From NCBI GenBank assembly GCA_027604185.1, contig JADGKB010000008.1, positions 173,930 to 237,929 of the forward strand: a DNA stretch of 64,000 bases, given 5' to 3'. A program made the translations under genes and the position numbers. Position 1 is the stretch's first letter; every line of letters starts with the position of its first letter. Origin of the DNA: Boothiomyces macroporosus (taxonomy: Eukaryota > Chytridiomycota > Chytridiomycetes > Rhizophydiales > Terramycetaceae). A model generated the notes under the pieces. That model saw only the letters and a program-made list of their open reading frames with translations. It searched no databases and was not told where the DNA came from. Positions 1 to 64,000 of this stretch are shown here, one piece after another.

Positions 1-460
1 CTTTGAAACCCACCAATTGTGCTCTTCTTCAAAGTAACACACTACATTAAACACTAGTTACCTGAAATTAAACGGGCTCCAGATGCAACAGCAAATTTGT
101 CTTCTCTTGGTGACCATCTTACATGTGTAGCGGCTCGATTGATACGTAGCAATACCAATGTTGGATTCCAGGTTTGAGCAGCTGCATCCCAAGTCCATAC
201 ATACGCATTTCTGTCTTGAGAACAGGTAACAATACGATCTTTGTTAGTGAGCAAGTACTAGAGTTTGGCGCCCAGTCAACACAAGTAACAAGTTTATCAT
301 GATCAGTCAACGTTTGGGAGAGTTGCCAAGAAGCGCCTTGCTTCTTGTAAATGGTAACTTCGTTGCTGTTTGGCGATAGGACAAGCTCGGTGCGGTTTTT
401 GTTGAATGAGTGGGATGTAATCGGAGTTCCGATGAGTAATTGATGGTTTTCGATTGACAT
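1..460 (-). CDS. ARPC1: ARPC1/p40, Arp2/3 complex WD40 subunit (partial, 3' end off window)
   Basis: This is the WD40 subunit of the Arp2/3 complex, which nucleates branched actin at the cortex. Exons on the minus strand are 460-259, 238-62 and 41-1; the C-terminal half lies left of the window. The two introns (239-258, 42-61) are each exactly 20 nt. Removing them restores the family strings [20 protein letters not shown] and GARLISVCYFEEE, which are broken in every unspliced frame. ATG at 458-460 begins MSIENHQ, a normal start for the family. The recognisable blades are [14 protein letters not shown] and the block around [19 protein letters not shown]. Its neighbour encodes an IQGAP-type actin regulator on the same strand, 124 bp away. 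Confidence 0.93.
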
Positions 461-584
461 TATTCAGAGGACTCTGTGCAGTCAACAACTTAAGATTTTC
501 CAATCTTGAAATTTGGCTTTGGGTATGCGTGGCTTAGCAAAACAGAACGCAAAGCCAGAAAATGTCAATATGCGATTGTATATA

Positions 585-3026
585 TTATTTCTTTGAAAAA
601 GTATTATTCAATAGTTGTATAGTTCTGCCTACATCAAATTTCACAAAGTCCAAATCAAGCATTGCCACACCCAGCTGCTGCTTTTCCAACAGGTCATCCA
701 GCTTTAGATCCATTTCAAGGATCGGCTGGTCCCTTCCCTTGTAGTTTAACGAAATCACGTAAACGCTTGGGAAAGGCGTGCTAATCACAAAGTAAATGTT
801 CTCTCGTCTGAAATTAGCAATCAATTTACCTATTTTCTGGAACAGTAGATTCAATAATCACTCTGGATTCTTCCAATTTCTTGTGGGTGAACTTTACTGG
901 TGCCTGAGTCTTTACTGCTTTTTGCTGTGGAGCACTCTGGATACGGACGTTTTGCAAGTAAGCTTTGTAAGTCTCCAGCTGTGCCCGAAGATAATCATTA
1001 TGATCTTGGATATTTTTGTACACAATTGACAAACTATTGATTTCGCTAGCTACTTTTTCTGCCAGATTGCCCAAGTGTGTTAGCTCAGCAGAAATTTCTT
1101 CTTTCAAAAGAGCGTATCCGTCACTTTTGCTGATTTGCCCCAATCTAATCAACTCTTGCATCATGTCACCAAGCTTGAGGCCTTTTCGTACAAGCAATTG
1201 ATCCCGCGAGGTGGATGCTAATTCTACTATTTTATCCAAATCTAGTGGTTTCATTTTAGCCATGCTTGGAGAAAGACGCAGTATTTGAACAAAGATGGAT
1301 TTGGCATCATAGCTAAATTAAGCGGTAATTACTATAAGAACTCGGCTCTTGTAAGCTGATCCGCAGCGGCAGAAGAGGTAGTGTCAATATTGGTTTGATC
1401 CCAACGGGAAAAGAGCTCCAAGTTGATTTGCTTATTTTCCGATCTTGGAAGCTGTGGTTGAGGAGTTCCAAGGTCATTTAAGCAAATTCTCAGTCTATTA
1501 TCCGGTTCAGGACACTATAATTAGTGAAATTCTACCAATTTGTCCATGCAGTTGTACAACAGCGAGTGTGTGCTGTAGATTTCATTCAACGTAATCTTCA
1601 ATTGCATATCTGTTTTTGACAGGGCAATATATTGTTCCATCTACGATTAAAAATTAAAAACCTCCAGTGCATCAGTGAATTCGCCAACTTCACACAAATC
1701 ATTCAAGAATCGTTGGAAACGGGCTTCGTTGTGCTCAATGAATGGATTCAGCACAGACATAAAAGGCTCTTTGGTGTGGGAAGGCTTGTTGGCCAAGTTT
1801 TGCAACAACTTTGCGACTAATGTAAAAGTCCTTCTAGGATTCTTTTTTGGATCCGAATCGACTGTCATATAATGCTGTGGAGTAACAATAGCAGGATTGA
1901 CGAATCGCAGCATGAAAAACCCTCCAATTAACGAGCATTTTTGGGCTTCAGTAGAATCTGGATATTTTCTCTGAGGATTAATTATAATTACCTTGGTCAA
2001 TGAACGAATTTGTTTACAAATCCATCTAATACCGTACGGAACTTGGTCAATGGAGCTCATAATGATACTGAGGAAACTTGCCCCAATTTCCATAAGAGTT
2101 TTCACCCTTGGGGCAATAATTGCCTGGACATCAGGATTTCTTGCTGCTTCTTCTGCACTAACTGATTTTGGCAAATTGGTAGGCTGGTTAGTGGCATTTT
2201 CGATATCCTGAATCATTTGGTCGTAAACTTTGACAGGATTGATTTCCAGGTCCAAATCATGTAATCCAATGAGCTTATTGACACGCTCCGATAATATGCT
2301 TTTGAGATAAGTTTGACCAGGACCACGTCTGGTGTATGTAGTCATCATTCTGCTTACCGGTGTATTTGCTCTCATCAAGTTGGAGAAATTAGTAGCGCTT
2401 TCAAACTCGGCAGCAAGCACGTTCTGAATTAAAAGAATATTACTTGAAACATGGATAACAGCAAATATTCTTCTCTGGTTTCGTACTGGTTTCCAAATAA
2501 TGTGAACATTACAGTTTGCAGCAAAGTGTCGATTTCAGATAGCGTAACAAATCTCGTTAACCCCGCGATATATCTTGGTTCAGACTGTAGCAAATGGAAG
2601 AGGTTTCCGTATAATTTACGCTTTCTATCATCTGGCAAGTGGCCTTCGGCCGTTTCCAATTCTTCTAATTGAGCAGCGACTTCTTGTTGCTACTATTAGG
2701 TTGGTATTACTTCAGACAAGGCCATTCTATTTTGAATCAGCAATGCAATTCTGGAATCCAAATACCGCTTATCCCTTTCTAAAATGAAGTTGCGTTTGGA
2801 CTGAGAAGATATTTTCAATTTCATTTCCCTTAACCTCCTTTGCGCTAAATATTAAGCTGGATTTACAATGAGTAAGTTCATCTTCTACTTCAGCATCGTT
2901 CTCTGCAGCCATTGACCATAGAGCTGCTACTGAAAATCTTCCGGATCTAGTCTTGCCTTCCATTCCATTTTGTGTTGCAACCAATGCCGCTTTCGCAACA
3001 TCCGAGGGTTGATATTGTTGAGACAT
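585..3026 (-). CDS. IQGAP/Gap1-type RasGAP-domain protein, 757 aa
   Basis: The protein has an IQGAP-like RasGAP domain followed by the RasGAP C-terminal domain. It lacks the calponin-homology and IQ regions of full IQGAP, so it resembles the short fungal Gap1/Sar1 form. Exons: 3026-2867, 2844-2711, 2689-2444, 2423-1992, 1970-1662, 1640-1536, 1514-1333, 1312-830, 807-585, total 2274 nt. The eight introns are 20-22 nt. Diagnostic strings after splicing are [18 protein letters not shown]-like [23 protein letters not shown], and [13 protein letters not shown] leading into [11 protein letters not shown]. Intron 1971-1991 is 21 nt with no in-frame stop; an uncut reading inserts seven residues absent from IQGAPs. 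No ATG exists upstream in the same exon frame, so ATG 3026 is taken as the start. Expected role: cytokinesis and small-GTPase or actin scaffolding. Confidence 0.9.
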
Positions 3027-3334: not shown

Positions 3335-6300
3335 TTATTGCTCTTGTGGTACCAGCACCTTTGCTAACTCAACCAATGGCTCAATTTGAGTGTTGCGACG
3401 AGGAAAGAATGAAAGAAATGAAACAAACGGTGCAATCTAGAGTTAGAAAAATATTACCCAAAAGTTATTGGGTGTGATGAAAGATGGCAGCAATCCTCTT
3501 GATGCGGTGAACAGCGATCTAGTATTAAATTCAATTACTTGAATAACAATGATCCCAGATGTAAATATCTATAGGCAGCTTGCTCCCGCGTCCCATAGTG
3601 TATAAGCTCATCAACTATGTATCGGTACAAGAAAAATGCATCAGAATCAATATCATTTAGAAGGCCTGGCAAAGTTGCTATTTGCCGGAGAAGACGAATA
3701 CAGTGACTTTCAAGAATATGGAAATGGTTCAGGGAATCAGAGGCAAACTAATTTAGAAATAAATTACTTGGAATGTCTTCAAGTGGCCAAAACTTAATCT
3801 GACGTATAGTCGCTGTCTCTCATGTGGCTTCTTTTTGTTATATAGTACAAAGTGATCCATGATGTATTTTTGCTAGGTTACGTTAAAAATACCTTTCGCA
3901 GTTGCTCAATATGCTTATTGATATTATTTAGCAACGGTATTATTCTATACTTTTTAGTCGCCTTTGGCTCTAGAGTGCATGTGATTAATCCTTGGTGGCC
4001 ATGGGAAAATGAAAGCTTTGAAAGACTGCTTGTGTTTGCTGTTGGCGTATCTTCATCAGAATCCGAGGAATCGTCATTGTTGCGTTTTTTACCAGATAGG
4101 TAATGCAGTACCCTTGACGTAAATGTGTTGTAACTTCGGTGATGCGGGCTTGTTGCTTTTGCAGCTGGCCCAGGATTATGCAACTCAATGTCAAAATATA
4201 TCGAATCGCATATAATGTGAAACTCCAAAGTCTTGTCCGAACTATTAGTGATTGCCAATATGTCATTATCACATTGAATTTGTTGCGGAGTCAGCGCTTC
4301 GATTTCGTTGTTTGCTTTCTTTGATACAGCACACGAAAAAACAAAGTCATTTGGCGAAACGGTCATCTGAAGCGGAGTACATAAAGCTTTTAATGGGATT
4401 ACTTTTTGATAGTCCTTAACAAGCCTGCAATTCACATAAATTTCAATATCCTTGTGTTCTACATAGTCTTCTAGCTGGGCACCAATTTTTGAAGATGGCA
4501 TCAAGAGTAGCCTGAGAAATACTTGACAGCTAGACCCTCCTTCAATTCTAATTGTCGAAAAAAGTTTCGCCCCAGATCTAGAGAGGGAGAAAATCAATTC
4601 GCTTTCGTCATCTCTGGGAAGATTACTAGTTACAGAAAACTCTAGTGGTGTAAGTTCATGGTTGAATATCACCAAACTCTTTGTAACATAAAATGCCCCG
4701 AAAGAGAGCATCCCCATGTCAATCGTTGAGCTTTTGGATTCAATCGCGTGCGTATAAACCTGGAAAACCTTGTTGTTATTCAAATCAGCTTTGTACGGTG
4801 CTGCTACTTCGGTTTGGGTAGTGTTGGTAGAGCGTTTCAAATTTTGCTTTGCAACAACCTCCATTGTAACCCGAACAAATTTTGTGTCCATATAGTTATC
4901 CAAATTTTGGATCATAAGATAAGCATAGTACGTTCCTCTAAGAGCAACCATCAAACTTAATGTAATCTGTTGTGAAGATGCGGAAAATGAGTTTGACCGC
5001 GACATTTCCAATAACCCTTCATATCTGTTGCACACTATCCAATCAGAGTCTTTTTCATTAACTGGGCAAATCCGATACGATGCTTGAGAGCCCGTGGTGA
5101 GTTCTATGGTGATTTTTTTAGATAATGCGGTGGGCGACAAATCCTGTTGGCCAAGATCAAGTTCGTAAAAGCCTTCAAATTTGCCACTGGTGATATCATA
5201 GAGCTTCTTGCATCCCTTGATTTCAAGCACTGGTGGAACTGGGGCACTATAGGATATAGCAGATTCTTGTTTCAAAGAAAAGTTTTGAATTTCTGGTGAT
5301 AGCGTTAATTCATCTCGAACAATAGGAATATCTTCAGTACCCCTGTTCTGATATACATCAGCCATCACTCGCGAAGTTCTAGTTTCAAATAGCTTTGTTG
5401 GGACATCGTCGGTGTAATCGGTAGTACTTTGCAACATTCCAGTGTTGTCTTCCAACAACTTTATCGAAACAGTCTGCCCTTTCTTTGACAAAGAATTCTT
5501 GTCAATGAAATGCACTTTGATGTCGTCGGAAATCCCGTAAATCTTGGAATCCCTCAAAGAGAACGTAATCGTAATTTGACCACCTGCTTCAACTTGAAAG
5601 GTCCCATCCTCCTTCAGAGGGGATATTTCGATAATGTTTTCTGCTGCAGAAGCAAATTCTATGGGATATTCTATGGCAACTTTCAAGTCAAGGGTGTAAT
5701 TATTTGACAAATTTGTTACACTGATATTTTGCTTCTGGATCGTCAAGGCAGGCTGTGTGGATTGCGGCTTTTTATCGTCATCACTGTCTGAAAGGACAAT
5801 TGTTTTAAAAGTAAGCGAGCTCTCTGATAGGGTAAATGTTGGCCCTTCCACAAAGACACCCCGCAAAGCGACTGATTCTACAAGCTTCAAAGTGTTCTCC
5901 TTGTCTCCATCTATGCTCTGTTTAACCTTTGAAGTCAGCCAAAACGTTCCCAAAGTTACTCCTGCAGGATTGGTCAAGTACGAAGAAGCTATCATCCCTT
6001 GTGACAAACGAATGGCATCTTTTGCGGCGATTCTAATTTTCACTTCAATTGAGCCTTTAGAAGGTAATGATACGCTTGTTCCAATGGGCGAATTTGAATT
6101 GCGGGAGAGTATTTCAGTAGAAATCAAACTTTCAACATCAGGCGTAAGGGTACAGCCAATATCAAACTTAACATCTTGATCTGCTACATTTGTAATGACA
6201 AACCAATTATCGCAAGGCAAAGCTGACGGAGAGGAAGGAAAAATCAGTGGGGGAAGCTGCAATTCTCCAGAGTTTAATCGGTCAAATTTCAACTCGAACT

Positions 6301-9300
6301 GGGTCATAAAATACTTGAGCGTCACAGTCAAATCATTGGATGGATTGAAGATGTTTTTAATCGTGATTGTTCCAGATTGAGCTCCAGATATTCTTTCTTG
6401 CACTTGTCTTGGATTAAACTGGCATTCAATAACTTGATGACATCCAGGTTCGATCTTTCTCTTGGAAGGAATATTTTCATTTTCATTACCAATTGAAGTG
6501 ATTTCAACATAATCCGGAATTTCAAAATCATACAAATACGTAATTTCGGATGGGTTGTGGATTTTGAATTGAAATTTTACTTCTTGCCACATATTGATGT
6601 GGCCCACTTTTCCCAAATCAATGATGTTCGTTTCAATTGACCCAACGGACTGACAGTATCCTACAGACAACTCGAAAGCTGCAACGTCTACCTGCTTATC
6701 AACATTCTTAAACACCAAGATCCCGTCCTGTATAAACCTTTTACCCAAATTAACTGTGCTAGCGTTATTTTCATCCAACAGCATGTTAAGCGATGTAACC
6801 GATATTACTGCGATTGCTTTTTCCTTTGGCTGTAACAGCAATGCGGAGCCAAGTACAGCCAATTTGTTGTTCACTCTAGAGTTTTCCACTTCGGAAGTAT
6901 TTTGGATCAAATTGTCCACCACGAATCCTGATCCAACATTAATCATCCAGCGAAAATTCAGGCCAATGTCACTGTATGCCTGCAAGTGTATGAGTTCATC
7001 AGTATTGTTTTTTAACTCTACACTGTTTTCGTACAGTGGCATGCTGTCTGTCCTCGATTTCTTCTGCAGTCTCAAATAACTGGCACCGCCATCCTGAACA
7101 ACCGACGAGTAAACATTTTCCCATCGTATTATATCCATCGTATCGTCTTCTACTCTTTTTTGATTCAATACTGAACAGGACACGAAGGTTGGATTACAAA
7201 ATGCTCTGACAGAGACTTCAAAGTTTTGATTCAAATTGTTCATATTCTTGCAAACAATTGATTCGTTGTAAAAGCCGTATTTTGCACACATTAAGGAAAA
7301 TGTAACACATTCGCCCTGAATATTGCTTCCAGTTTGTGATGAGGACTCGACTGGACCGATACACCCCTTGAAATCTTCAATTATAATTCCACTGGAGGGC
7401 TGAAGCTGAAATTGCAAAGGCATTGATGACGTAAGATTATACACCCAGAATTTTCCTCTAACAAGCTGGCCTTTTGAACACTTTGAACCAAAATTAATAA
7501 CTTTGTCGGAAACTGCAAAAAACGATTGTCCTATCGCGGCATTGAATTTTAGAGTATGGGTGAACACATTCACAAAATTATCTGGATTGGATACCACTTT
7601 GGAAGAGGCTGGATAGCTGTCGAGTTCCTTGATATTATCTTTCACAAAGATCATAAATCTAATTCCTCCAATCAAGTTCCTGCAGTCTATTTGAGACGCC
7701 AGCTTTGCATCTGTTTGAATGTTGAACGGTTTTTCCAACTTTTTCAATAGCGAAGCGCTTCCGGTGCTAACTAATCCTGGTTGTAAAGCTATATAAACAA
7801 TAACTTTTTCATTCCCATTTAAAGTAATCGGATTCGAAGAAAGGGAATTTTCCAACAAGTTATCGGCAAATATATAACACTGCTGGCTCAAGTTTGAAAT
7901 GGCTGAGAGAACTATGGGGTTATCGGTAATATTTTCTACTTCAATTGGAACTACTTTGGCAAATCGTTTTTGATAATCTATATAGCAATAACCAAAATCA
8001 AGCTCGTAATTTCCTTGTTTAACATCTGCAAGGCCAAAATGATTGATTCTTTCATGAGAATTGAAGTTTAGTCTGAGATAGGACGATAATGTAGCATAAT
8101 AGATATACGTTATTGATATCTTTTGTGATTTCCTGGAGTCTTGCACATGAATAGTCGCTTTCAGTCTGCCCAAGCTTCGTGGTATTAGAGTAAGTTCAAT
8201 TTTTCTTGTTTCATTTGCCTTCAAAATTCCTGCCTGTTTCTTTGCGTAAAGAGTTGCTGCCAAATCTCTTGGAATATCCAAGATAAACCGTAAATCCCGA
8301 TCAGATTGATTTATCAATACAAAATAGCAATGTTTCTTTTCTCCAATTTCCAATTTCCCTAAATCAACGAGTTGCATTTCAACAGTGAATTTGGGGGTTG
8401 CAACTTCAGGAATGAAATTTTTGATTGGGGATTGAGGGAGGTTTTGGCTCGTCGTAGTACTTGGCATGGAACTAATTACCGGCGTATCAAATTGGAAGCC
8501 ATTATCAGTCTCGCTTTTGCGACTAACATCTTGTTCTTCCTGCAAGACTCGTAGGTATGCTTGCTGGTCGTAACAGACTGTCGACTTCACAAGGACTCTT
8601 TTAACAATATCCGTATTTTTCTGTTCATGAATGTATATCCTTGCAGTGCATATTTCGCTATCTATCGACCTTGTGTCTTCGGTTCCAACAGCTGAAAGGG
8701 ATGGATTTGAAGGCAGAGAAGAACTTTCAAACTTTGAATAGCTAGTGTCACTTTGAAAGTCTGGGGAACCTCTAATGGATATTCTACTAATGCGAGATGG
8801 CTTGAAAAAGACTTTGACTGTTTTCACACATCTTGGGCCAATCGGAAATATTATCGAGCAGTCCGTGGTTTTTACTTTTGGTACTGTATTAGAAGTAATT
8901 GCTAGCAAATCCTTTGCACTTGTATGGGCAGATTTGGTAGTATTGAGCGCAACAGGTGAGGAATCTTCCTGCTTTTCATTTTCCGATTTTGCCACCTTCC
9001 CTGCTCGTAGTAGCTTCAGCTCTTCCATAATTTTATCGGCTTTATCTTGACGGCCCTTTCGCACAGCAATTTTGTGTTTTTGCTCCAATTGCTCAATTCT
9101 CTCTTCCATTTCTTTCGAAAGCAAAACTTTTTGATTTCCATCCTCATCTTCGCCGGAACTGTCGATTGAAAACCAAATCTCTCCACTGCATTGTTCAAAG
9201 ACTAATTCCTGGGGATCGACTTTAACTTCGAAAATTCTCGTGTGCTTGGTGCTAGTATTTGAAATCACAATATTTTGCACATTTTGACACACTTGGTCGA

Positions 9301-12300
9301 TGAGACATGGGCCAAATGAGAGCAAGAGATTTTCGATAAAGAAATTGGCAGGTTGCCGGATATTTGCTTTTACTATCAGAGTTTGGTTATTGTCGGGATT
9401 TTGGATATTCTCGATTGTTAGGTTTTCTTGGAATAGTCCGGCTAGCGAAGGATCAAACATGAATTCGACTTCGCGCTTTCCATATCCACGAATAACACCG
9501 TATTTCCCTTCTGAAAATATTAAATCTCCTGAAGCTATTGATCCAGATTTTCGGATACCGTATATGAGAGGCACTTCTGATTTGTTTCTAATTACAATCT
9601 TCTTGGTTCTCCTTTCAGTTTTGTCCATATTACCAAAATTGATGTGCTTTTGTCCCAGCTCCATCAACGATTTGGCAACCAAGGATCTGACCATCATTTC
9701 TCTAATTGGGATTTTATCAGCATTTTCCTTTTTCAACAAATAATCAAACTGCATAGCTTTAATAGTCCTGTCGAATTCAATCATTTTGAAGAATACACGG
9801 GCATCGTATTTTCTTGCTTTGCCCTATATATTATCAACAAGGTACCTGAAGCGATGAAAGATTTTGATTATTACTTTTGAACACAAGGATAATTGTCAGC
9901 TGCTTTTGAGGACCAACTGTTACCCGCGATAAAGGAACTAGTTGAGCATCTCGAATGCAGTCATCCAACTCTCTTCGAATTGTCTGCTGGGTCTTTACGT
10001 ATTTCTCTTCAGATTCATAATTAGTAAAGTGCGGACTGATCATTCCGGTTTCTTTTTCTAGGAGTGGTAGAAGAGTATCCATTGCAAACTTTGTTGTTTC
10101 GGCATTTTCCACTTTTTCATCAGGCTTGCATAACAAGTTGTCTGACAATGAGACATCTTCATATGTACCTGAAACATCAGAAACATCGTCATCATTTTGA
10201 GCAGAATTTTTCTTTGTAAAATTGGATCGTAATGATCGCAGTGGTACTGTATAAGTATTCTTGCGTCGACTGGGTGATCTCGGTGGTTCCACTTTATTTG
10301 AAGACGCCAAATCCAAGTAATCTGGAGATGCAACCGCTTGAGTGATATCCCCCATATTTCTCCTTGATTTTAATGTTACCGAGCCAATTGTTATACCAGA
10401 AGTTGATTGTGCAGCTTTCAGCGAGTTGACTTTTGATTCGGTAGAAGGCCGGTTTAATTTTCTACGATCTTCAATAGATTCTAGCAATTTCTCCTTTCTT
10501 TCTGAATTTCTTGGAAGCACAGTAGGGTTATACTCTGCCACGCCATATATTCCAATGTCTCCTGGCATCGAATTTGAAAGCTCTAAAACCAAATCTTGAT
10601 CAGAAATATTTTCAATGATGAATGTACGGACAACTGGCGAATTGATTAATGCTGTGCCAAAATCAATAAAATTTGTTGCTGCTGGAGTCAAAATATTATA
10701 GAATAACGAGTGAAAAGTAACTTTTTGCTGGTCAATGTTTGTCGAGTGTACTTGCACAATCTGGTCATTATCAGGGTTAAAAAGGTTAGCAACAGTGATA
10801 TCCTTTTTGTAATCTGGGTTGACTTTTCTAGGATAGATATCAATTTTAACTTCCACAGATTGCTTTGCAGGTATTACTATTTCTCCCCTGAATGAACTAA
10901 GAACCTTTGATACATATCGAAGTTCTATTAAGGTAGGCAAATCAGACATGTTACGCACAATCAACGGAGCCGATTTGAGCGTGCTGACATTGGTATCACC
11001 GAAATTTATCGTAGAAGGAGACACTTCAATTGCTGATGTACACACTTTGCTGACACACTGAATTATATTCTTTTCGGAGTTGTTCTGTTGTCCAGGTTTG
11101 CAAGAAGATAATGTCACCCTAAAATTTCTTTTTGACAGTCTACATGATCGATAGTCTGAAGTAATTGGATCTCTTTGGGGCAAATAGCAAACTTCAATGT
11201 GCTTCTCTATCCCTGGTCGCAAAATCAATTCTTCGATCCTTGTGATTTCTTCTCCTAGTATTCCAACATCCTTGTTGTATGGAAGGTCAAAGCTTGAAAA
11301 TGAATCGTAGTCTTCAGACATTGTTCTAGATACAGAGTCATGATTTGAACGAAGAGCTTCAACGATATTTGGTAGTGGAACTATGTCAAAGATATAATAC
11401 CGTCTTGATCTTCGCCGTTTGGATATCCTGGTGAGGAACCGACCGAGCTAGAAGAGCTATGCGTACGTGTTATCGACAGTTCACTATGGGTCCTGGATAC
11501 CCCAGATATTTCAGTCAGGCGATCGTGCAAAAGCTTTTCTGGTGGTTCCAGTAGACCGTCCGAAATGTCAAATGAATCTCTATGTAATGGTTCAGACATT
11601 TGTTTAGAGTGCTGTCTAGATCTAATCGGCTCGTATGTTTGCACTTCTTCGCTCTTTAATTGAAATACCACATCCGGAGAGTCACTGGAAAATCCAATTT
11701 CCAACGGGGATTCTGACACATTCCGCAAGATAATAAATTTCTTTTTCATTAATCCTGCACAGCAATCTCCAAAATCCAGCATATTTCCTGTACTGATGAT
11801 TAGCTTTTCTTCTCTCATCACTGATCGCACTATGGCATGAACGTGAGTTTGGACAGTATTACTGGCATCATTCTGGTTTTCAATCTGTAATTCATAGTTG
11901 AATTCACCAACGTCGGTAGGTTTAAATGAAACTCGAATTCTTTTTGGGGTATAAGCTGCAAGAGGTGAAAAATCTAGAGGCTCGCCAGTATCGTAATCAG
12001 TGAACTTGAGCCAGTTTTTATGATTCTTGTTTGATAAATCAACTGATGTTAGTGTCCAGAAAAGCATGATTTCGGATCGGTTGTGAACTGTGAAATCTTT
12101 GAAATACGTTCCGCCAACGACACAGTCATCGAAAATCAACCCTGTAGAAGAAATATCCGTTGTGAATACACTCTTGCAGATCCTTGATTTGAACTTTGTA
12201 GTCACCTTTTGTAAAATTCAGTTTACCTGAAAATCAGGAGGGATGACTACATCACCGTCAATATTCTTTGCGGGATCGGTATTGGTACGTCCAATCTTTG

Positions 12301-12796
12301 GTGATATGATCGGCTTTTCCAGAATGGCTTTTGAATCCTGCTTTACTAGCCCTAGTTTGTCCTTTTTGAAACAGAAAAAGAACAGCAATCCGTTTATCTC
12401 AATAAAGTCGTGCGTCGCATCCTCCTTGAAAATAGTTGGGGTATTTGGTTCCGTAGTTGGTAAAAAGGCAATGATGATTTTCTGAGTTTGAAATGGCTCC
12501 AAATCAATTTGATCAATATGCCCTACAAAGTTGAATAACTGGTTAAAGCCAGTGTTGGTCCTGGCCATACAATACTCGACCGTATTCGTATTCTCAACTT
12601 GGAGTTGGTCTGGAAGATTTTCATTTGATTTTTGGAAGGCGATTTTTGTCAACTGAGGTTAATCATTGATTACGTTTGAACGGAGCTTTACTGTGAGTTT
12701 TAAATCCGTAGTATTTTTAATCTCGAATCTAGTAAGCGAATGTAATCCGTTATCGTACACTTGATCCAATATAATCTTTCCTGTTACTTCAATCAT
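3335..12796 (-). CDS. Giant multi-ASH/MSP-like domain protein, 3098 aa
   Basis: Nine exons total 9297 nt: 12796-12674, 12652-12227, 12205-11401, 11380-9846, 9823-3893, 3872-3768, 3747-3539, 3518-3458, 3436-3335. Introns are 20-22 nt. The protein is built from repeated beta-rich ASH/MSP-like modules recognisable by signatures such as INFGDTNVSTLKSAPLIVRN, FIDFGTALINSPVVRTFIIE, INFGNMDKTERRTKKIVIRN and VINFGSKCSKGQ. A charged coiled-coil stretch lies near residues 1200-1250 (around 9.0-9.1 kb). The last four small exons add a non-ASH tail with helical blocks. They are easy to miss because the large exon reads into a stop at 3878 only if intron 3873-3892 is kept. ASH arrays are typical of ciliary and centrosomal proteins (HYDIN, CFAP47, CEP192, DLEC1). 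No calponin-homology or IQ region is seen, so I do not assign it to one of these. A flagellar or centrosomal role is inference. Confidence 0.82.
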
Positions 12797-20747: not shown

Positions 20748-20824
20748 TTGTAGAGGAGTTTTTGGAGTGATGCGGCAGTGGTCAGTGCTCAATGGTTGTA
20801 CAAAAATAGTAATGGATCTAGGTT

Positions 20825-26040: not shown

Positions 26041-26062
26041 TTGACTAGATTAGCAAATATTA

Positions 26063-37227: not shown

Positions 37228-37261
37228 CTGTTCTAATATAAAAGTTTCAAATATTACTGTA

Positions 37262-47945: not shown

Positions 47946-48105
47946 ACGTTAACTGATCTCAGCGATTTAAGCACACGTAATAACGGTCCTTCTATTTGAT
48001 AATATTCCAATCTATAAAAACTTGTTATATTAGATTTCGTTTCCATTTTTGACGCATTCATCAATGTAAATCCACCCACGAAAATAAAACGCGAGAGCGT
48101 GGAAA

Positions 48106-51703: not shown

Positions 51704-51881
51704 TTTGATTAAAAGGAACTGTGAAATTAGATGCTTTATAATAGGAACAATGGCGCTTGCATTGTTTTTCCACTCCAAATCTAATGGTAATATTCAAGCT
51801 ATTAACTTGATACTTTGCATGGATATATCGGCGGATATGGTTCCCCGATAAATACATTGCTGAAATGTTTGCTTCTAAAAA

Positions 51882-52333
51882 ATGGGAAGCGACGCAATCA
51901 AGAAAGCAAAACAACCAGCGCACCAAAAAACAGCGCAATCAAGAGTAGTCACGAATCTGTATTCAATCGGATGGATTGCTGGATTCTTTATATTCTCATA
52001 TTTGATTGATTTTCTTTCCATTTTGTTGAAAATCAAACATGGCGTTTACTTTTGGTTGGCAGCGGGTTCAATCACTGGGTTTATCTCATGCTTTGTTTAT
52101 TTATCAGTGTACTTGCCAAAGATCAAAGGGATAAAGGTTAATTTTGACAAATGGGAGGAAGAAGGTATTTTTGGCTAACAACAGTTCCTCGCACCATTCA
52201 GATTGCTACTGTATTCTTCTTGACCTCAATCATCTCTTGTAATATCGTACTGTGGCCATACCTTAGTGTGCTGTCCCCAGTATTTCTATTCAATCTCCTA
52301 ATGGCTGCCATAAGTTTTGTAGGATTTTTTTAA
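51882..52333 (+). CDS. TMEM128: TMEM128-like four-TM protein (143 aa)
   Basis: Exons 51882-52164 and 52185-52333 total 432 nt; the intron is 20 nt. Four membrane segments are seen: IGWIAGFFIFSYLIDFLS, FWLAAGSITGFISCFVYLS, ATVFFLTSIISCNIVLW and VFLFNLLMAAISFVGFF. The arrangement matches TMEM128, particularly SCNIVLWPYLSVLSPVFLF against the family's CFNIALW...LTPLLLF. Function in that family is poorly known (endomembrane). It sits between two Galpha-like genes. Confidence 0.75.
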
Positions 52334-52435
52334 TAGCCTAATATAAATCGCTTATCCGTAATGATTTAGTTTTCAAGATACCGCTGGGGATAAAGCTCGT
52401 AGTAACAATCCACGCCATTGTTCCTTGTTTTTTAC

Positions 52436-53629
52436 ATGGCAGAAACAACGATCAAAACTAAAGAAGGAGAGGCATCTGTCGGCACTCCAAAGATGAGTAG
52501 GCGGTAATACTCTATCTCACTCAGCGAACAAGATAAGCAAGCACGCGATATCGAAGCCTATTTATTCAAAGAAAAAGTACCGTTTACTAATCCAGAAAGC
52601 CTTTGAAGAAAAGCAAAAGCAGCCTGTAGTATTGATACTTGGGAGTTCAGATTCAGGCAAATCAACGCTATTAAAGCAATTGCGCATTATTCATGGAAAC
52701 GGATTCACTGCAGAAGAAAAGGAAAGTTACAAACATTTAGTATGGGAGAATATGGCAATATATTGTAAAAAGATCCTGCAGCAGTTTTCAAACATCTCGG
52801 ATATTGCAGATGTAACCTGGTGTTGACTTAGAAATATGCAATATTGGGCACTTTGACCAAAGAAACCGTGACAGGAAAAGGAATAGCATCGTTAATCCTG
52901 GATTTATACAATGAAACCATAGTAATCGACACTATTTTATTTATCAAGGATTTACCTGGGACTGCGTCATTGTAATCATTATTAATGTAGCTTCCTGTCA
53001 AACGCAGAGCGAATATGTACACTAAACTTTCAAATTACAAATGAAGATATAATCTATTTGAGAATTCCAACAGAATCGATTACGGATACTGTGTTTACTA
53101 TTGACAGGCAGATTATGCATTTCATTGATGTCAATGGTAATCCTCGCCACAGAAAATACTGGCTTCCTTACTTTGATAATGCGAATGCAGTAGTATTTGT
53201 TGCTTCGCTGGCCTCATATGACATGATGGTCGAGGACGACATTGAAACTAACCAAATGGCAGATTCAATTTTTCTTTTACAATCACTAGTCACACACCCA
53301 TTACTATCGAAACCCAATTTCATTGTATTCTTGAACAAATCAGACTTGTTTGAAATCAAAGTCAAACTGGTAGACGTAAAAAAGCACTTTCCAGATTTCA
53401 AAGGTAGATTTTACTGACAGAGGCGAATTGAAAGATGCAGGAGCAGCTCTCAAATATTTCAAGAAAAGGTTTTTGGTTGAAGAGCATGCACATCGAGTGA
53501 AGCTGCATGTAACGCGTTGTACTGATACCTCCAATATGCGTATAATCATACACCAAGTGTTGTAAGTCTGTTATTGATGATAGAAAAAATATTCTTACCA
53601 GTGCAATCAACTCTATTCTTCCTCCTTAA
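52436..53629 (+). CDS. Heterotrimeric G-protein alpha-like subunit, copy 3 (357 aa)
   Basis: Exons 52436-52503, 52525-52576, 52596-52811, 52832-52971, 52991-53403, 53423-53561 and 53584-53629 total 1074 nt; introns are 19-22 nt. The P-loop is GSSDSGKS (second Gly to Ser, Glu to Asp). Switch I, DIIYLRIPTE, keeps Arg and Thr. Switch II, DVNGNPRHRKYW, replaces Gln with Asn and a Gly with Asn. NKSD is present; the TCAT box is RCTDT. It is the most divergent copy, with an unusual helical domain (TGKGIASLILDL), and ends NSILPP rather than GLI. Intron positions after FKG and near the C-terminus match the other two copies. Confidence 0.85.
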
Positions 53630-55254: not shown

Positions 55255-57636
55255 CTATACATCTTGGATTGAAACATTAACAAATAATGTCGAAAACCCA
55301 ATACGTTCTCCTTGCTTGTTGTTGAGAGGTATATGGCGATAGCCTGTCTTAGGAAAAACTTACCACACTCTAAACAAGAAAAAGCAATGATGTAACTACC
55401 GAATGTGTCAGCAGTCAACCCGTCCATATCTTCCACGTTGAACCGCAAAAAGCATAAATCATGCAACATGATATTGAACACAAACTCCTTGTTAAATACT
55501 GGGTTGAATCCATTCGATTTAACAACTTGGCTTTTCTGCTTTGCAGTATCTTTAGGATCGCCTATTACTTCAACAGTAACCGCCGATTTTGTACTAGTTG
55601 TTGCTTTTTCTTTACTCCTTACCAACTGCTGAGCAGACAGTACTACAATTCTTAATTTCTTTGGAGATATCTTCACTGGGTCTATAGATCTGAAACGTTC
55701 TGGTTTTAAAACATATCCACACCCGCCATTTGCAGCAAACAGTGCGTTATTGATCTCCATCGCTGTGTCTGGGATTAGTATGAATTACCAAAAGTTTGGA
55801 AATTAAGAGCAGCCATCTGTGTTCCAATTAACCAATGTGGTATTGGGTCATAGTTTGATGAAGTCAACCGCATAATTGAAGGGTATACTCGAATGACATT
55901 ATTTCTAGTTAACTTTAGATATTCGTCTGGTTGTTTCTGCATTAAACCAATCGCTTTATTCTCCGTAAAGGAAAATACTTGATCAAATTTAAGCGTCACA
56001 TCTGCATTAATTGATATTACTTGTTAGACTTTCCACATGTTTAGCTGGCTTGCCTTTAAAGTACACTATTAAACTGGTAAGGGCTTTTGACGTGCTGCCT
56101 GCAATTTTTGACTTTGATCGCTTGATTACTTTATCCGGAGGTGCATCTTGTACTGGGGTCGTTGATATAGTCATCGAATAGGATAATTTCCTATATATAC
56201 CGGAGGGAGATGTGGGAGAAGACCCTGCTTCGCTATTCAAATCTTCATCCGACATGTCTTCTCCCAGTAATGATAAACATTTTCCTTTAATCAATATTTT
56301 GTTTTTCAACTGATTAGGTGAAGGTAATTGACCAGGGTATCTTGTGTTGATCTGTGTCTTTACCAAGGCGTCACCTAATTTTGTCTCTAATATCTCTGCA
56401 ATCACATTCTGCTGATCGAGGGAACATCTAATCTCCAGTGATAGTATTAACGGGGTATCTGTAACTACAAAGGCGTATTTGACTATTGTGTCTATTGCGT
56501 CCTTGAAAGAGATTTTGGATGTTAATGTGCCACCATGATAAATAACTGGCTGACCGTTTGGGCCATCCCAGCAATCTATTTCCAAACATCTGCAACCTTT
56601 AAGTAAAGCTCTGATATATCCTGTTTTAAGATCAAACTACCCTCTACAGAACTTTCACTGGCTATCTGGTCACCCAGCAAGTATGTATTATGAGATGAAT
56701 TGATATAGTAGCAGCACAGCGGATAATCCATATTCTGGTGACATTCGCGATATTCTTTTTTGAATATTGCGTTCCTTGAAGAAAGTAGAAACGATGTAAA
56801 ATGATCAAAATCCATCTCATCCTGCGAATTTAGAAATTTTCTGTAAATCTCCTCAATCCTATGTTCTTCCCATTCCTGCTTTTGTATTTTAATTATAAAA
56901 TCTTTAAATTGCAACAGGCTAATCGTCATTCCATTCGTCGATATTTGAGAAAAAAGAAACGCAATTTCCGGTCTGAATTTTAAATTCCGGTACAATCTTT
57001 CAAACTCTTCAAAAGTAATTGATTCAGTTTTTGAAATGTTTGAGTTTTTAAAAGCGGATTTGATTTGATTTTTGGTCAACAAGATGTTCAATTTTTTCAT
57101 GAGCAGAGTTATATCATCCAAATTCAAAGATCCACTGTTATTTACATCCACCTTGTTCCACATTTCCTTTAACCATTTCGGTAATCCTACTAAATCATGA
57201 ACCGTTGATGCATCTTTAGATAGGAGCATGTTCAAACCTTGAACCCTGCGTTAAAATCAATTAACCATAGCATACACAGCTCTGGAGTAGGCGCAATCAA
57301 ATCCAGGGTCTTGTACCGTCCCTTAACTGAATAAATTATACTGGGATTAATAATACAAACCTAAATGACGATTCGTCATCCGCAGACTTCCCCTGCTGTA
57401 TAAATCTCTCCGTATACTGTCCCAATCTGACTTCAATGATATTATCGAATGAAACTAGATTAATTGCGGGTACTGGAATTGAACGAATTCTTTTTACTTT
57501 CAAACAACAGATTTAACGGGTATAATTCAACTTTCAACATTCTCTGTTCCCTTCCATGCTTCATCAGCTTTGTCATAAGTGTGCCTGTCAGCAGTGCGTT
57601 GTTTGTATTCTTTATTGGGGTTGGCTGACTCTGCAT
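55255..57636 (-). CDS. PLC1: Phosphoinositide-specific phospholipase C, delta type (747 aa)
   Basis: Exons 57636-57474, 57454-57361, 57340-57266, 57245-56641, 56620-56021, 56001-55789, 55768-55364 and 55343-55255 total 2244 nt; introns are 19-20 nt. Domains in order: a PH-like N-terminus (GTLMTKLMKHGREQ), an EF-hand (KVDVNNSGSLNLDDI), the X domain with NSSHNTYLLGDQI, CLEIDCWDGPNG and VIYHGGTLTSKI carrying both catalytic His, an X-Y linker rich in Ser, the Y domain (MRLTSSNYDPIPHW), and a C2 domain ending LFVNVSIQDV. The enzyme cleaves PIP2 to IP3 and diacylglycerol. ATG 57636 is the first available start; the upstream frame relies on TTG. Confidence 0.93.
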
Positions 57637-58087: not shown

Positions 58088-58589
58088 ATGTTCAAACTAA
58101 TAACCAAGAGAATCAGAATACCAGCCAACGCCAGACTATACCACGAAAAAGTTATAGATCACTATGAAAAACCTCGTAACGTTGGCTCATTGAACAAGAA
58201 AGATATTAATGTTGGAACCGGCCTCGTAGGGTACAGAATCATTTTAATAATAGAGCACCAGCTTGTGGTGATGTTATGAAACTACAAATTTTGGTTGATG
58301 ACGAAACCGGTGAAATTAAGGATGTCAAATTCAAGACCTTTGGATGTGGAAGTGCAATTGCATCGTCGTCTTTGGTAACAGAGAAAATCAAAGGGTTGAC
58401 TGTGTGGGACGCAATGAAAATTACCAACGTAGATATTGCCAAAGAGCTTTCTCTACCTCCAGTAAAGTTGCATTGCTCTAGTAAGGATTATTTTTAACTG
58501 TAGTGCTTGCCGAAGATGCTATCAAGAGTGCTGTCAATGATTGGCAATCCAAAAGAAAACCAAAAACCGCTCCATCTCCATCTGCTTAA
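58088..58589 (+). CDS. ISU1: Iron-sulfur cluster scaffold ISCU (151 aa)
   Basis: Exons 58088-58230, 58254-58480 and 58504-58589 total 456 nt; both introns are 23 nt, the longest standard class here. A mitochondrial presequence (MFKLITKRIRIPANARL) precedes VIDHYEKPRNVGSLNKKD. All three scaffold Cys are present, in GAPACGDVMK, FKTFGCGSAIASSS and LHCSMLAEDA, and the chaperone-binding LPPVK motif lies before the last. The first and last of these are restored only by splicing. It assembles Fe-S clusters in the mitochondrial matrix. Confidence 0.96.
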
Positions 58590-60124
58590 TAAACTACTAG
58601 CTTGTATTTTTTATACTCAAAATTGTAGACCCGTTCCGTTTCTGTTCTTACTAGTAAAGTTAACTTGCTGAATTCAGTGGTAATCCAAATGTTTGGCGAA
58701 TTTAACTTTGATTCTATCTTTAGTATATTACTCATCATTACTCATTTTCACAAAGCTGAATGGACCTGGTAACTAAATAATTAGTGCAATTCAATCAATT
58801 AATAACTGATTCATCATTTCAGTTGACAATCTACTCCCAAGGAATGCAAGGTACCATCTTGTAGGAATAAGGAAGAATTGCAGCCCTCCACAGAGGTACC
58901 GTTAAGAACAATACGTTATAGCAATTATTAGTTTTGATTTTGATTGAAATTGATCAAGAAAAGATCCTGCATAGATTTAACGCAAAATAAGCTACCAATG
59001 CCAGGGTGAACGAATACTCCATAGATCAAGCTATCTGACCATCCAATTGAAGAGTAGGGTGCCAGAATTATCCTTAATATGTACCCTCTATGTGTGAGTG
59101 CATGATTTTGGTTTAGATAATTTAATGCAAGCAGCGCCAAGTAGCCAACTATTATAAAACTCTAATCCCAATCATATCCGGAAGAATTTATGATGCACCG
59201 CAGTACTATTATCTTTATAATTCAATAATGTGTCAAATATTTCGTTTTTCCCTCTGGCTTGGTGGTGGCCGTTACAAGGATGAAATCAGAGACCTAGGCC
59301 CACTAATTACACAAAAGAAAACAATTAGTACTTGCGGGAAAAACTCTAGATTTTTTCAAAAAGCGTATAATATCTAACGGAAAGTTGGTTCCACCGGTTT
59401 CCTGAGGAATAATGCAGCGCTGGTTGCTGTTATTCACCTTGACCTGATATTTTTTCCCCCTTTTTTTGTTGGGAATGTGACCAATCAATAAAAAAGTGGA
59501 AATAATGAAGAGATAAAAGTGCTGGAAATCCACACGAGAGGTCGGATACCAGCCAGCATAGTCTTATTTATTTGCTAATAAATTATTTCCGTCGAGGAGC
59601 GAGTTTATTCATCTCTTTTTGGCGGAGATACAGTCGCTTGTGGTGCTCACCTCCAATCGTGGCGTTCAGTGGCAAAGTGAGTCTTCATCTTTGTATTTTC
59701 TTCTCCTTATGTTGGATACAAGCAATAAAATGCAAAAACATACATGTACATGGCTCGTTAACAATAGATTTAAGACTACTTGCCGCTGAACTAAATCCTG
59801 GCTCTGCCATTATTATCACCGACCCCCAAATTTCCCCAAGGTACGATTATCGCTAAAAAATAGTCCAGTGGTGTCCATACAACAAGCCGGGTCTGTACAA
59901 GTAGGTTTGTAGCTAATCAAAGGTCTATGGTGAATTACCGTCTGTGCCGGAAGGTTTTTATATCCCACTTTATCAAATATATCTTTACCCGCATGCAACA
60001 GGGCTGGATAATGTGACATTTAGAACAACTGTAAAGTCAAAAGCATCGAATTTGGAATTGCTAATGTGGGCCAGTAACGAGCCAGTATTTGTTTAATTAA
60101 CAATAGAATGCGCTAAGAGATCAA
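58590..60124. other. 1.5 kb region with no clear gene; possible relics
   Basis: This is the largest gap in the window. On the minus strand, 58928-59155 reads as a membrane-like segment (FIIVGYLALLALNYL) followed by ILAPYSSIGWSDSLIYG, but a stop lies directly upstream and no GT lies within 25 nt of a usable AG. Another minus ORF, 59816-60019 (MSHYPALLHAGKDIFDKVGY onward), starts with ATG but has no recognisable domain and no clean splice partner. These may be decayed fragments or an unrecognised gene. Confidence 0.4.
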
Positions 60125-60716
60125 ATGTCAGAAATCTCTCTAAAGGCATGTTCTGGTGGCCAGCATGCTGGTAAATGGATCACTCTCAGAGGGCCAATGA
60201 TCAAAGTTGGACAGACTACTAGTGTGGATTTTTCGGTTGAAGACAAAACCCCTGACATCAAGACTGGCTTTTTGATTGCCTCAATTAGTCTAGAGCCAGT
60301 ACCTCAAAAACATGATTCCGGCCAATTTAAGTGCCATATTCCAGGCTGTGGAAGACTCTTTACCCGACCATTTAACCTCAAATCGCATTTGGAAACCCAC
60401 AATCCAGCCAGGAATAAGAGCCACGAATGCGCAGAATGCCATGCTCAGTTCTGCAGATCGCAAGGTACATTTTGTTTAAACAATAGATTTGGCCAGACAT
60501 GCACAAATCCATAATCGCACAATGATATTCAACTGTGCCGGCTGCAATCGAACATTTTCTAGAAAGGACGCCCTAAAGAGACACTTGAGAACGTCGAAAT
60601 CTTGTCCAGCTATGACATCGACAGATATTTCCATGAATATCACACACAAATCACCTACTTTACCATTGACCCCACAGGAGCCAACCCAATTGGAAACTCA
60701 AGAAACGGCTTACTGA
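60125..60716 (+). CDS. Three-finger C2H2 zinc-finger protein (189 aa)
   Basis: Exons 60125-60464 and 60487-60716 total 570 nt; the intron is 22 nt. Three C2H2 fingers lie in the middle: FKCHIPGCGRLFTRPFNLKS with HLETH, HECAECHAQFCRSQDLARHA with the second His, and FNCAGCNRTFSRKDALKRHL. The second finger is complete only after splicing. Ser/Thr/Pro-rich flanks follow. It is a probable transcription factor; the target is unknown. Confidence 0.85.
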
Positions 60717-62140: not shown

Positions 62141-62176
62141 TGCGAAAAAACAAAACTTTTATTCAAATTAAGCAAA

Positions 62177-64000
62177 TTATGGGCAAAGTTGGCATCCAAC
62201 GGATCCGCCAGCAAGCTCAACACATCGCTGGCCAGGTCCGCAATCTTGAATGGCGTAGGCAGTGTTCAAAAAGACATCTGTATATTGACAAGTAGCGATC
62301 TGAGTATTTGAGCAGGCGTATGCACCAAATGTACACCCAGTGACATCTGTCAGGTCTGGATACACTGCTGCGCAGCCTGTATTGTTTTGGCATGGGTAAC
62401 CACACATTGCATAGCCCAAGTTGGTGTTGCAAGAAGTTCCAGCAGCACACTGTATTATAACAAACGCGTTATGATCGCATACTGCGATTGCTGAATTACT
62501 TGAGGCAGAGTCTCCTGAACAGGTAGAGTAGCCTTCCGCAAATGCACTGCAATCTTGTCCGTTTGTAATCACTGGGAAAACAGGACAATTGGATGTTGCA
62601 GTTGGAGATGTGGTACTAGTTGTTTGGGTACCTATTGGATTGATGATTTTAGTAGTTGTAGTTCTTGCAGTCGATGAAACTGTACTAATAGATGGTGTCT
62701 TTGTTTTGGTGGGTTTGGTAATGGTGGCTTTAGTTTTCGTTGACACATTTGACGTTTTGGATGCTTTCGTTTTTGTAGTTTTTGTCTTGATTGAAGGAGT
62801 TGTGGTCACAGTTGTTGTTTGAGTTCCTATTGGATTGATGATTTTGGTAGAGGTGATAGTTGAAGTAACTTGCAATGTCGATGTAACTGGGATGATTATA
62901 GTGGTGACTGTTTTGGTAGATGATTTGGTCTTTGGTGGCTTTGTGGTTTTAGACTTTATCTACAGTTAGTCAAAGTTACTTGGGTGACAGAGTTGCTCGT
63001 GAAACTCTCTGTAGTTGAAAAAGAAGTGATAGGCTCGATAGTTGTAGTTGCTGCAAAACTTGCTGTTGTAGTTGGTTGTACAGTTTCCGAGAAGGTTGAA
63101 ACAAACTCAGTGCCTGTAATAGCACTGGAGGTTCCAGTTTCGACTTGGGTTTGAGTGATTTCGCTGGTGGAGAAACTCGAGTAGGTTTGGAGCTTGGTAG
63201 TAGAAGATGGAGTTTCAGTTGCACCACTCGAGGTTAACTCTGAAATTGTGAGTGTATTAGACTCGGAAGTGCTTGTCAGGATGATTTCTATGTTATTTCA
63301 AAAATTACCTGAAGAAGTTTCAACTGAATTGGTAGTAAGAGTAGCTGCAGTGGTAGAAACTTCGAAAGTAGTCTCAAAAGTAGTTGTTAAAGTAATTTCA
63401 ATCGTACTGGATGCAGTTTCTACAGAAGAGAGTTCATTGGTAGTGATTACGTTTGTAGATGACACTTCAGTGGAGGTTTCGGCCAAAGAGCTGGTGACAG
63501 CCTCGACAGTAGTAGTCAATTCCAGTGATGTGGTTGTTTGTTCTGCAGTGGAGGTCGCAGCTTCAGTTGTAGTTGCCTCGACAGTAGTAGTCAATTCCAG
63601 TGATGTGGTTGTTTGTTCTACAGTTGAGGTAGCAGCTTCAGTCGTAGTTGCCTCGACAGTGGTAGTCAATTCAACTGATGTACTTATTTGTTCTACAGTG
63701 GTAGTCAATTCCAGTGATGTGGTTGTTTGTTCTGCAGTAGAAGTAGCAGCTTCAGTCGTAGTTGCCTCGAGTTGCCTCGACAGTGGTAGTCAATTCAACT
63801 GATGTACTTATTTGTTCTACAGTGGTAGTCAATTCCAGTGATGTGGTTGTAACTGATGTACTTATTTGTTCTACAGTGGTAGTCAATTCCAGTGATGTGG
63901 TTGTTTGTTCTGCAGTAGAAGTAGCAGCTTCAGTCGTAGTTGCCTCGAGTTGCCTCGACAGTGGTAGTCAATTCAACTGATGTACTTATTTGTTCTACAG
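62177..64000 (-). CDS. Ser/Thr-rich secreted or wall protein with CBM19-like C-terminal domains (partial, 5' end off window)
   Basis: The visible exons are 64000-63309, 63287-62980 and 62959-62177, with introns of 21 and 20 nt. The N-terminal part is a long Thr/Ser/Val/Glu repeat array (ATTTEAATSTVEQTTTSLEL units). A Thr/Lys-rich linker with a repeated IINPIGTQTT motif follows. The C-terminus holds two Cys-rich modules. One is YSTCSGDSASSNSAIAVCDH with CAAGTSCNTN; the other is CTFGAYACSNTQIATCQYTD with CGPGQRCVE. Both recall CBM19 chitin-binding domains. Two 10-bp duplications near 63767 and 63945 break the long reading frame. Confidence 0.65.
63490..64000. repeat. Coding tandem repeat array with 75-78 bp units and a 178 bp copy
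   Basis: The unit GTAGTCAATTCCAGTGATGT plus about 55 bp recurs several times. A segment starting near 63700 reappears starting near 63878 and includes the GTTGCCTCGAGTTGCCTCGA 10-bp duplication. The array encodes the Thr-rich repeats of the partial secreted protein on the minus strand. Confidence 0.75.

Follow-up and report, generated by a model that had tools for sequence, protein, structure and literature searches.

Evidence for a dominant class of 19-23-nucleotide spliceosomal introns in the genome of the chytrid Boothiomyces macroporosus

The stretch of DNA analysed here (the window) comprises 64,000 nucleotides (nt), bases 173930-237929 of contig C8 in the Boothiomyces macroporosus assembly, which totals 15.2 megabases on 216 contigs. 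Many of the genes in the window appear to be interrupted by GT-AG introns of only 19-23 nt, and these tiny introns are the subject of this report. An earlier note, made from the letters of the window alone, had placed the DNA in a fungal lineage. This is correct: the closest protein matches all come from chytrids, and the host is a chytrid of the Terramycetaceae (Rhizophydiales). Among the matches listed, Boothiomyces sp. JEL0838 comes nearest to the RasGAP protein encoded in the window (93%), followed by Globomyces (77%), Gorgonomyces (71%) and other chytrids; for the phospholipase C (PLC), the nearest match is that of Terramyces sp. JEL0728. The IQCH-like protein matches a deposited Boothiomyces macroporosus protein with 89% identity across 57% of the query (BLASTP).

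The genes that can be named from domains or homologues are spread across the window. On the minus strand, a WD40 fragment (1-460; ARPC1-like according to the earlier note; gene model and Pfam) has introns at 239-258 and 42-61, and an IQGAP/RasGAP gene (585-3026; Pfam RasGAP and homologues) has eight, at 2845-2866, 2690-2710, 2424-2443, 1971-1991, 1641-1661, 1515-1535, 1313-1332 and 808-829. A G-alpha gene on the plus strand (12990-14158; Pfam and PDB alignment) is interrupted at 13004-13025, 13294-13313, 13475-13493, 13907-13926, 13965-13985 and 14093-14112. It is followed on the minus strand by a ribonucleotide reductase (RNR) small chain gene, RNR2 (14188-15212; introns 15120-15140 and 14766-14785; Pfam and PDB alignment), and a clathrin-adaptor small-chain-like gene (23786-24335; intron 23928-23946; gene model and Pfam). 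The IQCH-like gene (39304-42863, plus strand; Pfam and two relatives) has 14 tiny introns, at 40184-40203, 40441-40460, 40564-40583, 40670-40688, 40752-40774, 40870-40889, 41103-41123, 41389-41407, 41758-41778, 41953-41971, 42055-42073, 42147-42168, 42219-42239 and 42349-42368, plus a 20-nt intron at 40314-40333 that replaces a 53-nt call. A UPF0020 methyltransferase gene, called TRM11 in the earlier note (42896-44231, minus strand; introns 44015-44034 and 43251-43270; Pfam), a Tim54 gene (45833-46761, plus strand; introns 45996-46015 and 46515-46535; PF11711) and a rhodanese gene (50014-50532, plus strand; introns 50023-50043, 50205-50224 and 50301-50319; Pfam) come next. The PLC gene (55255-57636, minus strand; Pfam and homologues) has introns at 57341-57360, 57246-57265, 56621-56640, 56002-56020, 55769-55788 and 55344-55363, plus a 19-nt intron at 57455-57473 that replaces a 43-nt call. 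The ISCU gene (58088-58589, plus strand; Pfam NifU_N and PDB alignment) has two introns, at 58231-58253 and 58481-58503.

Removal of these segments restores recognizable proteins. After splicing, Pfam profiles are matched over positions 1-207 of 207 (RasGAP), 3-333 of 333 (G-alpha), 1-281 of 281 (RNR small chain) and 2-125 of 127 (NifU_N); the X and Y domains of PLC, the UPF0020 methyltransferase domain and WD40 also score, and spliced Tim54 reaches 95.7 bits (3.5e-27) with PF11711. All four junctions of RNR2 and ISCU (two each) are gap-free in PDB alignments. Of the 120 homologues listed for the RasGAP gene, 60 were compared at its eight junctions, and these are gap-free in 60, 54, 60, 58, 58, 56, 59 and 59 of them; four of the six tiny junctions of PLC are gap-free in all homologues but one (59 of the 120 listed). 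For the IQCH-like gene, 13 of 14 junctions align without a gap to one or both of two relatives. Two splicing factor genes elsewhere in the genome behave alike: the U2AF large subunit (U2AF2) scores 339.8 bits with the U2AF_lg profile when spliced, against 230.7 for its best unspliced piece and a curated cut-off of 310.3, and Slu7 scores 294.0 bits over the whole profile, against 154.6 and 94.7 as pieces. In the window, 75 of the 99 introns of the class are 19, 20, 22 or 23 nt long and would shift the reading frame if retained.

The length class was examined with an untrained gene finder in which introns of 10-100 nt were equally likely a priori and only the two end dinucleotides were specified. 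All 256 end-dinucleotide pairs were run on the window and on a sample of 20 other contigs, each represented by a stretch of 10 kilobases (kb). With GT..AG, 151 of 266 introns fell at 19-23 nt. In the 20 stretches elsewhere the count was 127 of 212 calls, compared with a mean of 15.2 (standard deviation 7.0) for the 255 other pairs; the runner-up there, TA-GG (53 calls at 19-23 nt), is a register echo of the same introns, read one base later. In the window, 24 of 54 GT..AG calls were of this length, compared with a mean of 3.6 and a maximum of 15 for the other pairs. GC-AG yields 12 calls of 19-23 nt and AT-AC, an end pair of U12-type introns, 25 over both sets, where the average pair gives approximately 19. 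Thus GT-AG is the only intron class seen, and among the 256 pairs the peak at 19-23 nt belongs to it. A first gene model (36 kb of training sequence, strict intron penalty) had been dropped for poor separation, with GT-AG ranking second of 256 by gain and six of 20 calls at 19-23 nt; the length peak appeared with a larger training set and a milder intron penalty.

A trained model, in which splice signals were learned from the data under a flat length prior of 12-70 nt, gave 35 gene models in the window with 117 introns, 99 of them at 19-23 nt and distributed over 29 genes (17 of 19 nt, 43 of 20 nt, 24 of 21 nt, 10 of 22 nt and five of 23 nt). In the 20 other stretches, 290 of 374 introns were in the class. 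Extrapolation from these 264 kb to the genome gives approximately 22,400 tiny introns. When the limit was raised to 300 nt, 321 of 488 calls in the window and the 20 stretches remained at 19-23 nt; there was no second peak, and many of the longer calls fuse neighbouring genes.

The same peak is obtained by counting motifs, without any gene model. The relaxed motif GTA ... yTRAy, 1-3 nt, yAG occurs 266 times at 19-23 nt in the 264 kb, versus 46 times in the reversed sequence used as control, and no other length bin is strongly enriched: the flanking bins give 21 versus 25 (14-18 nt) and 35 versus 42 (24-28 nt), and the ratios for bins from 29 to 158 nt lie between 0.92 and 1.37, the highest being those at 39-48 nt (82 versus 60) and 139-158 nt (185 versus 147). 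In the whole genome, the strict motif GTAAN{6,10}CTAATN{1,2}TAG (19-24 nt) is found 1087 times, a count somewhat inflated by exact repeats of contig segments, versus 42 for the reversed pattern; when stretched to 24-55 nt it is found 334 times versus 311. Motif matches also recur at constant offsets, between C2 269581-305704 and 312177-348300 (42596 bases), C3 202919 and 224537 (21618 bases), and C10 129535 and 183191 (53656 bases), which points to large duplications or to redundancy in the assembly.

Most of what had been claimed for the window holds at this larger scale. The description of the introns as genome-wide went beyond the evidence then at hand, yet it stands, given the peak on 20 other contigs and the genome-wide motif count, and the statement that all are GT-AG agrees with the survey of end pairs. 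The motifs said to be restored by splicing are borne out by Pfam scores for RasGAP (IQGAP in the earlier note), RNR small chain, PLC, NifU/ISCU, G-alpha, UPF0020 (TRM11), WD40 (the ARPC1 fragment) and Tim54. The hand count, which put 96 of 97 introns at 19-23 nt and spread the 97 over 28 genes, is upheld as to the class (99 of 117, in 29 genes), and its share of 96 of 97 is plausible. Four longer calls in the window (42, 43, 53 and 58 nt) were compared with relatives, and all four contain conserved coding sequence, two of them ending in a GT-AG intron of 19 or 20 nt. In PLC, the 42-nt call is coding: its product, VFSFTENKAIGLMQ, is present in Terramyces with one difference. The 43-nt call in the same gene is eight codons plus the 19-nt intron given above. 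In the IQCH-like gene, the 53-nt call is eleven codons plus the 20-nt intron, and the 58-nt call (40803-40860) is coding. Nine of the remaining 14 window calls outside the class are multiples of three. Because every longer call that was checked held coding sequence, the true share of 19-23-nt introns is probably above 99 of 117 and near the 96 of 97 counted by hand.

The anatomy of the introns was drawn from the 151 GT..AG introns of the untrained model. At the 5' splice site, +3 is A in 91% and +4 is A in 55%; at +5 there are 68 introns of the 151 with T but only 29 with G, and +6 is T in 50%. The commonest 5' hexamer is GTAATT (18 of 151), and GTAAGT is rare (7 of 151). Branch sites were sought as the last yTRAy whose A is followed by 4-9 nt, or otherwise as any NTNAN; the strict form is present in at least 101 of 151 introns (TTAAT in 39, CTAAT in 28), the looser form accounts for the remainder, and no motif was found in five. 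The branch-like A is followed by 5 or 6 nt in 127 introns and preceded by 13-15 nt in 136. T stands ahead of the terminal AG in 72%, and the mean G+C content of the introns is 0.30, compared with 0.385 for the window. The assignment of the putative branch site follows from a motif that can pair with GUAGUA of U2. Paramecium introns are under selection for a stop codon on retention; here, 313 of 550 class introns from a length-informed model have a stop in the actual frame, versus 320 and 333 in the two other frames, and such selection was rejected for want of any sign.

Close relatives appear to carry introns of the same kind, which can be read out of errors in deposited proteins. Over intron 1, the deposited JEL0838 RasGAP protein (P0001) has the sequence that read-through would give, apart from a single difference, and it thereby loses a block with strong conservation among ten other chytrids. 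It errs at introns 2 and 7 as well and matches the spliced model at the remaining five. The Terramyces PLC protein has seven extra residues, GSLWLTV, exactly at one junction, which when decoded by hand give an insert of 21 nt, GT...yTNAC..GTNG; at two further junctions the protein is missing pieces. The B. macroporosus IQCH protein deposited for the locus studied here (P0241) has 834 residues, compared with 1054 in the spliced model, and is continuous over four of the 14 tiny introns; by eye, it agrees with the spliced model in the common blocks except at gap edges. These three deposited proteins are scrambled or shortened because tiny introns were misread, and gene counts and orthology of the Boothiomyces and Terramyces genomes may be affected in the same way. 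A search of viral and genome collections with the RasGAP alignment found no DNA of other chytrids. In the titles, abstract beginnings and passages that are freely available, we found no description of fungal introns of approximately 20 nt, which is weak evidence of novelty; as far as those texts go, the tiny introns are partly present in public annotation without a text describing them.

The main parts of the spliceosome that were searched for are encoded. Genes for the U1, U2 and U6 small nuclear RNAs are present (U1 is 0.7 bits under the curated cut-off), with the canonical motifs AUACUUACCUG at the 5' end of U1, GUAGUA in U2 and ACAGAGA in U6. There are two U2 genes, at C80:60682-60874 and C178:9607-9797, with similar 5' halves and diverged 3' halves. 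Slu7, Prp18 and U2AF2 are encoded as spliced models. Loss of Slu7 and Prp18 had been expected from the very short distance between branch site and AG, and this expectation was rejected, as both genes are present. With all six of these components encoded, the spliceosome looks unreduced as far as it was searched.

The trained gene model is the sole basis for the remaining genes with tiny introns. On the minus strand, an unnamed gene of 3099 amino acids (3335-12796) has introns at 12653-12673, 12206-12226, 11381-11400, 9824-9845, 3873-3892, 3748-3767, 3519-3538 and 3437-3457; a gene of 895 amino acids (15805-18530) at 18318-18338 and 17133-17152; and a model of 1425 amino acids, by eye possibly two genes joined (19146-23501), at 22451-22469, 20818-20840, 20523-20541 and 19325-19344. 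Three models that by eye are membrane proteins (25429-28541, minus strand) have introns at 26045-26063, 27207-27225 and 28447-28465; within this region, two similar genes lie in tandem at 26473-28541, and by eye they encode multipass membrane proteins, with N-termini MVKTGTANPVAVDIMVNAFCNACVVGNLFFPLLKMTIEWEG. A gene of 124 amino acids (29018-29409, plus strand; intron 29112-29131) is followed by one of 857 amino acids (29415-32143, minus strand) with introns at 31787-31806, 31236-31255, 30815-30834, 30275-30295, 29908-29927 and 29769-29788. The interval 32767-34614 holds a plus-strand gene of 416 amino acids, by eye an aspartic protease (introns 32959-32978, 33122-33141 and 33538-33558), and a minus-strand gene of 149 amino acids (34228-34248); 34928-39247 holds a plus-strand gene of 734 amino acids (35541-35562, 36554-36573 and 36837-36856) and a minus-strand gene of 650 amino acids (39044-39064). 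Further models are a gene of 498 amino acids (47106-48733, plus strand; introns 47942-47962 and 48279-48297), a gene of 299 amino acids, by eye with zinc fingers (59709-60716, plus strand; introns 59746-59767, 59841-59863, 59901-59922, 60085-60106 and 60465-60486), and a gene for a Thr-rich repeat protein (62177-64000, minus strand, open at the window end; introns 63288-63308 and 62960-62979).

Two genes that by eye resemble the first G-alpha gene, one on each strand, lie together with a plus-strand gene of 144 amino acids in 50571-53431, with introns at 51657-51677, 51228-51248, 51152-51171, 50776-50794 and 50614-50633 (minus strand) and at 52165-52184, 52504-52524, 52577-52595, 52812-52831 and 52972-52990 (plus strand). 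In the three G-alpha-like genes (12990-14158, plus; 50571-51820, minus; 52436-53431, plus), DVGGQ of switch II is replaced by DVSGLQHHRK, DVSGLRHHRK and DVNGNPRHRK, respectively; the first gene was compared with G-alpha structures and the other two by eye. The catalytic Gln thus seems to have been lost from all three predicted proteins.

We conclude that the nuclear genome very probably carries one dominant class of U2-type spliceosomal introns of 19-23 nt that are little more than splice signals placed end to end. A spliceosomal class in a fungal genome had been proposed from the window, and it is in keeping with the GT-AG ends, the branch-like motif 5-6 nt before the intron end and the encoded U1, U2 and U6; removal by the spliceosome would account for the restored frames and domains. 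Several results weigh against this conclusion or limit it. The total model score ranks GT-AG only eighth of 256 pairs, and the signal sits in the lengths. Calls outside 19-23 nt number 18 of 117 in the window and 84 of 374 elsewhere under the trained models, and 167 of 488 under the 300-nt limit; all four that were checked among the 18 proved wrong. The length-informed model makes more 21-nt calls and gives 146 introns in the window, part of them probably false. Gap-free is a lenient measure: mean identity at the RasGAP junctions ranges from 0.28 to 0.82, and even the scrambled JEL0838 protein counts as gap-free at intron 1. The remaining two of the six tiny PLC junctions lie in indel-rich stretches and are gap-free in one of 55 and two of 58 homologues. 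The U2AF2 model includes one 33-nt call that is possibly exon. In the IQCH-like gene at approximately 40861-40895 (plus strand), no GT-AG intron joins the frame though both sides match relatives; a one-base assembly indel or an unusual intron is possible, and the break fits the earlier observation that IQCH was the sole complete spliced gene whose exon total is not a multiple of three. U1, U2 and U6 are canonical, so that neither U1 nor U6 has a change that would compensate for the lost G at intron +5. RED helps human spliceosomes on short introns, and a profile search of the genome for it (PF07808) gave no match, a miss that does not show absence.

The alternative that the tiny segments stay in the messenger RNA, either coding or bypassed (for example by frameshifting), has in its favour the 42-nt call in PLC, which did turn out to be coding; for the class itself it is very improbable, as about three quarters of its window members shift the frame if kept, read-through in RasGAP destroys the conserved block described above, and the length peak is specific to GT..AG among the end pairs. 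We regard it as scarcely credible that gene modelling or assembly errors produced the class: the trained models are partly circular, and the 18 window calls outside the class, with four of four checked being wrong, show that they err, but counts free of any model give the same peak, genome-wide too against the reversed-pattern control, and assembly errors would not place GTA, yTAAy and TAG at fixed spacing. A sizeable second class of ordinary fungal introns (50-150 nt) beside the tiny ones is unlikely, if less so than either of these. Slu7, Prp18 and U2AF2 matter most at longer branch-to-AG distances, and their retention would suit such a class, as would the small motif excesses at 39-48 and 139-158 nt and the scattered longer calls under the 300-nt limit. 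Against it, the motif ratio stays between 0.92 and 1.12 across the five bins that span 49-118 nt and is 1.06 in the 119-138-nt bin, the genome-wide count at 24-55 nt barely exceeds its control (both assume the same motifs for longer introns), and the four longer calls checked against relatives are exon, with or without an intron of 19-20 nt.

Returning to a single dominant class of tiny introns, their layout runs from a 5' splice site GTA(A/T)T(T) over approximately 4-6 nt to a putative branch site yTAAy, and from there over 1-2 nt to (T/C)AG. The length is set by two short rulers, one of 13-15 nt ahead of the branch A and one of 5-6 nt behind it; removal would proceed by intron definition. 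In human B complexes, the available passages of PMC6692369 give a U6/5' splice site helix of 17 nt and a U2/branch helix of 14 nt with approximately 21 nt between them, so that approximately 52 nt are needed between the sites, and report no in vitro splicing for an intron whose two sites were 46 nt apart. Because 13-15 nt leave no room for both a helix of 17 nt and one of 14 nt, binding at the two sites would have to be sequential, or else rely on shortened helices within a collapsed complex. According to PMC8363638 (in the part available), splicing that depends on U2AF requires at least eight pyrimidines to be efficient, and between the branch A and AG there would be no room for such a tract; as U2AF2 is kept although only a few bases separate the two, it probably works through protein contacts, or may act on the AG. 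The earlier note required tolerance of a short branch-to-AG distance, and only 5-6 nt follow the branch A here, but the spacing that is probably harder to accommodate is that of 13-15 nt from 5' splice site to branch A, given the human figure (PMC6692369, same passages). It is about as likely as not that the Terramycetaceae, with a canonical spliceosome retained, have brought all their introns down to the physical minimum, in which case their B complex must adopt a collapsed geometry undescribed for yeast or human and may be unable to splice introns much above 24 nt.

If the conclusion is true, intron minimisation is separable from spliceosome reduction, as this chytrid keeps Slu7, Prp18 and U2AF2. 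Boothiomyces is probably culturable, and a chytrid of this kind offers a system for asking how little intron a spliceosome needs. The findings are also a warning for gene-finding pipelines in which the minimum intron length is set higher.

A narrow length range near 15-25 nt throughout a genome, as found here, is known from nucleomorphs, Stentor and mikrocytids; the loss of Slu7 and Prp18 or the reduced spliceosome seen with other ultra-short introns is not found in Boothiomyces. The earlier note had named nucleomorphs (18-21 nt) and heterotrich ciliates (15-16 nt), which matches the literature, and had omitted the mikrocytids (16-17 nt), as far as the available parts of PMC10245619 and PMC9505925 go. 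Chlorarachniophyte nucleomorph introns (PMC10245619, passages) are uniform and cover almost the same length range, but a nucleomorph is a remnant nucleus with extreme genome reduction, whereas Boothiomyces has a 15.2-megabase fungal genome with Slu7, Prp18 and U2AF2. In Stentor coeruleus, according to passages of PMC9505925, the commonest intron begins with GUAAUU and the branch A lies approximately 5 nt before the intron end, both as here (GTAATT being our commonest hexamer); the same passages describe no strong branch consensus and a table marks Slu7 and Prp18 absent, whereas Boothiomyces has a clear branch motif and both genes. Mikrocytid introns are likewise tiny and uniform with conserved motifs, but Mikrocytos has 224 introns and a spliceosome of 17-19 identified proteins (PMC10245619, passages), compared with approximately 22,000 introns by extrapolation and retained second-step factors in Boothiomyces. 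Paramecium and Nyctotherus have genomes with only ultra-short introns, of approximately 25 nt (PMC5014332, in the part available); those of Boothiomyces are shorter and show no sign of stop-codon selection on retention. In the literature examined, as far as its accessible parts go, uniform introns this short are otherwise tied to remnant nuclei, extreme parasites or ciliates; judged from sequence at genome scale, the introns of Boothiomyces are a fungal variant of this ultra-short class.

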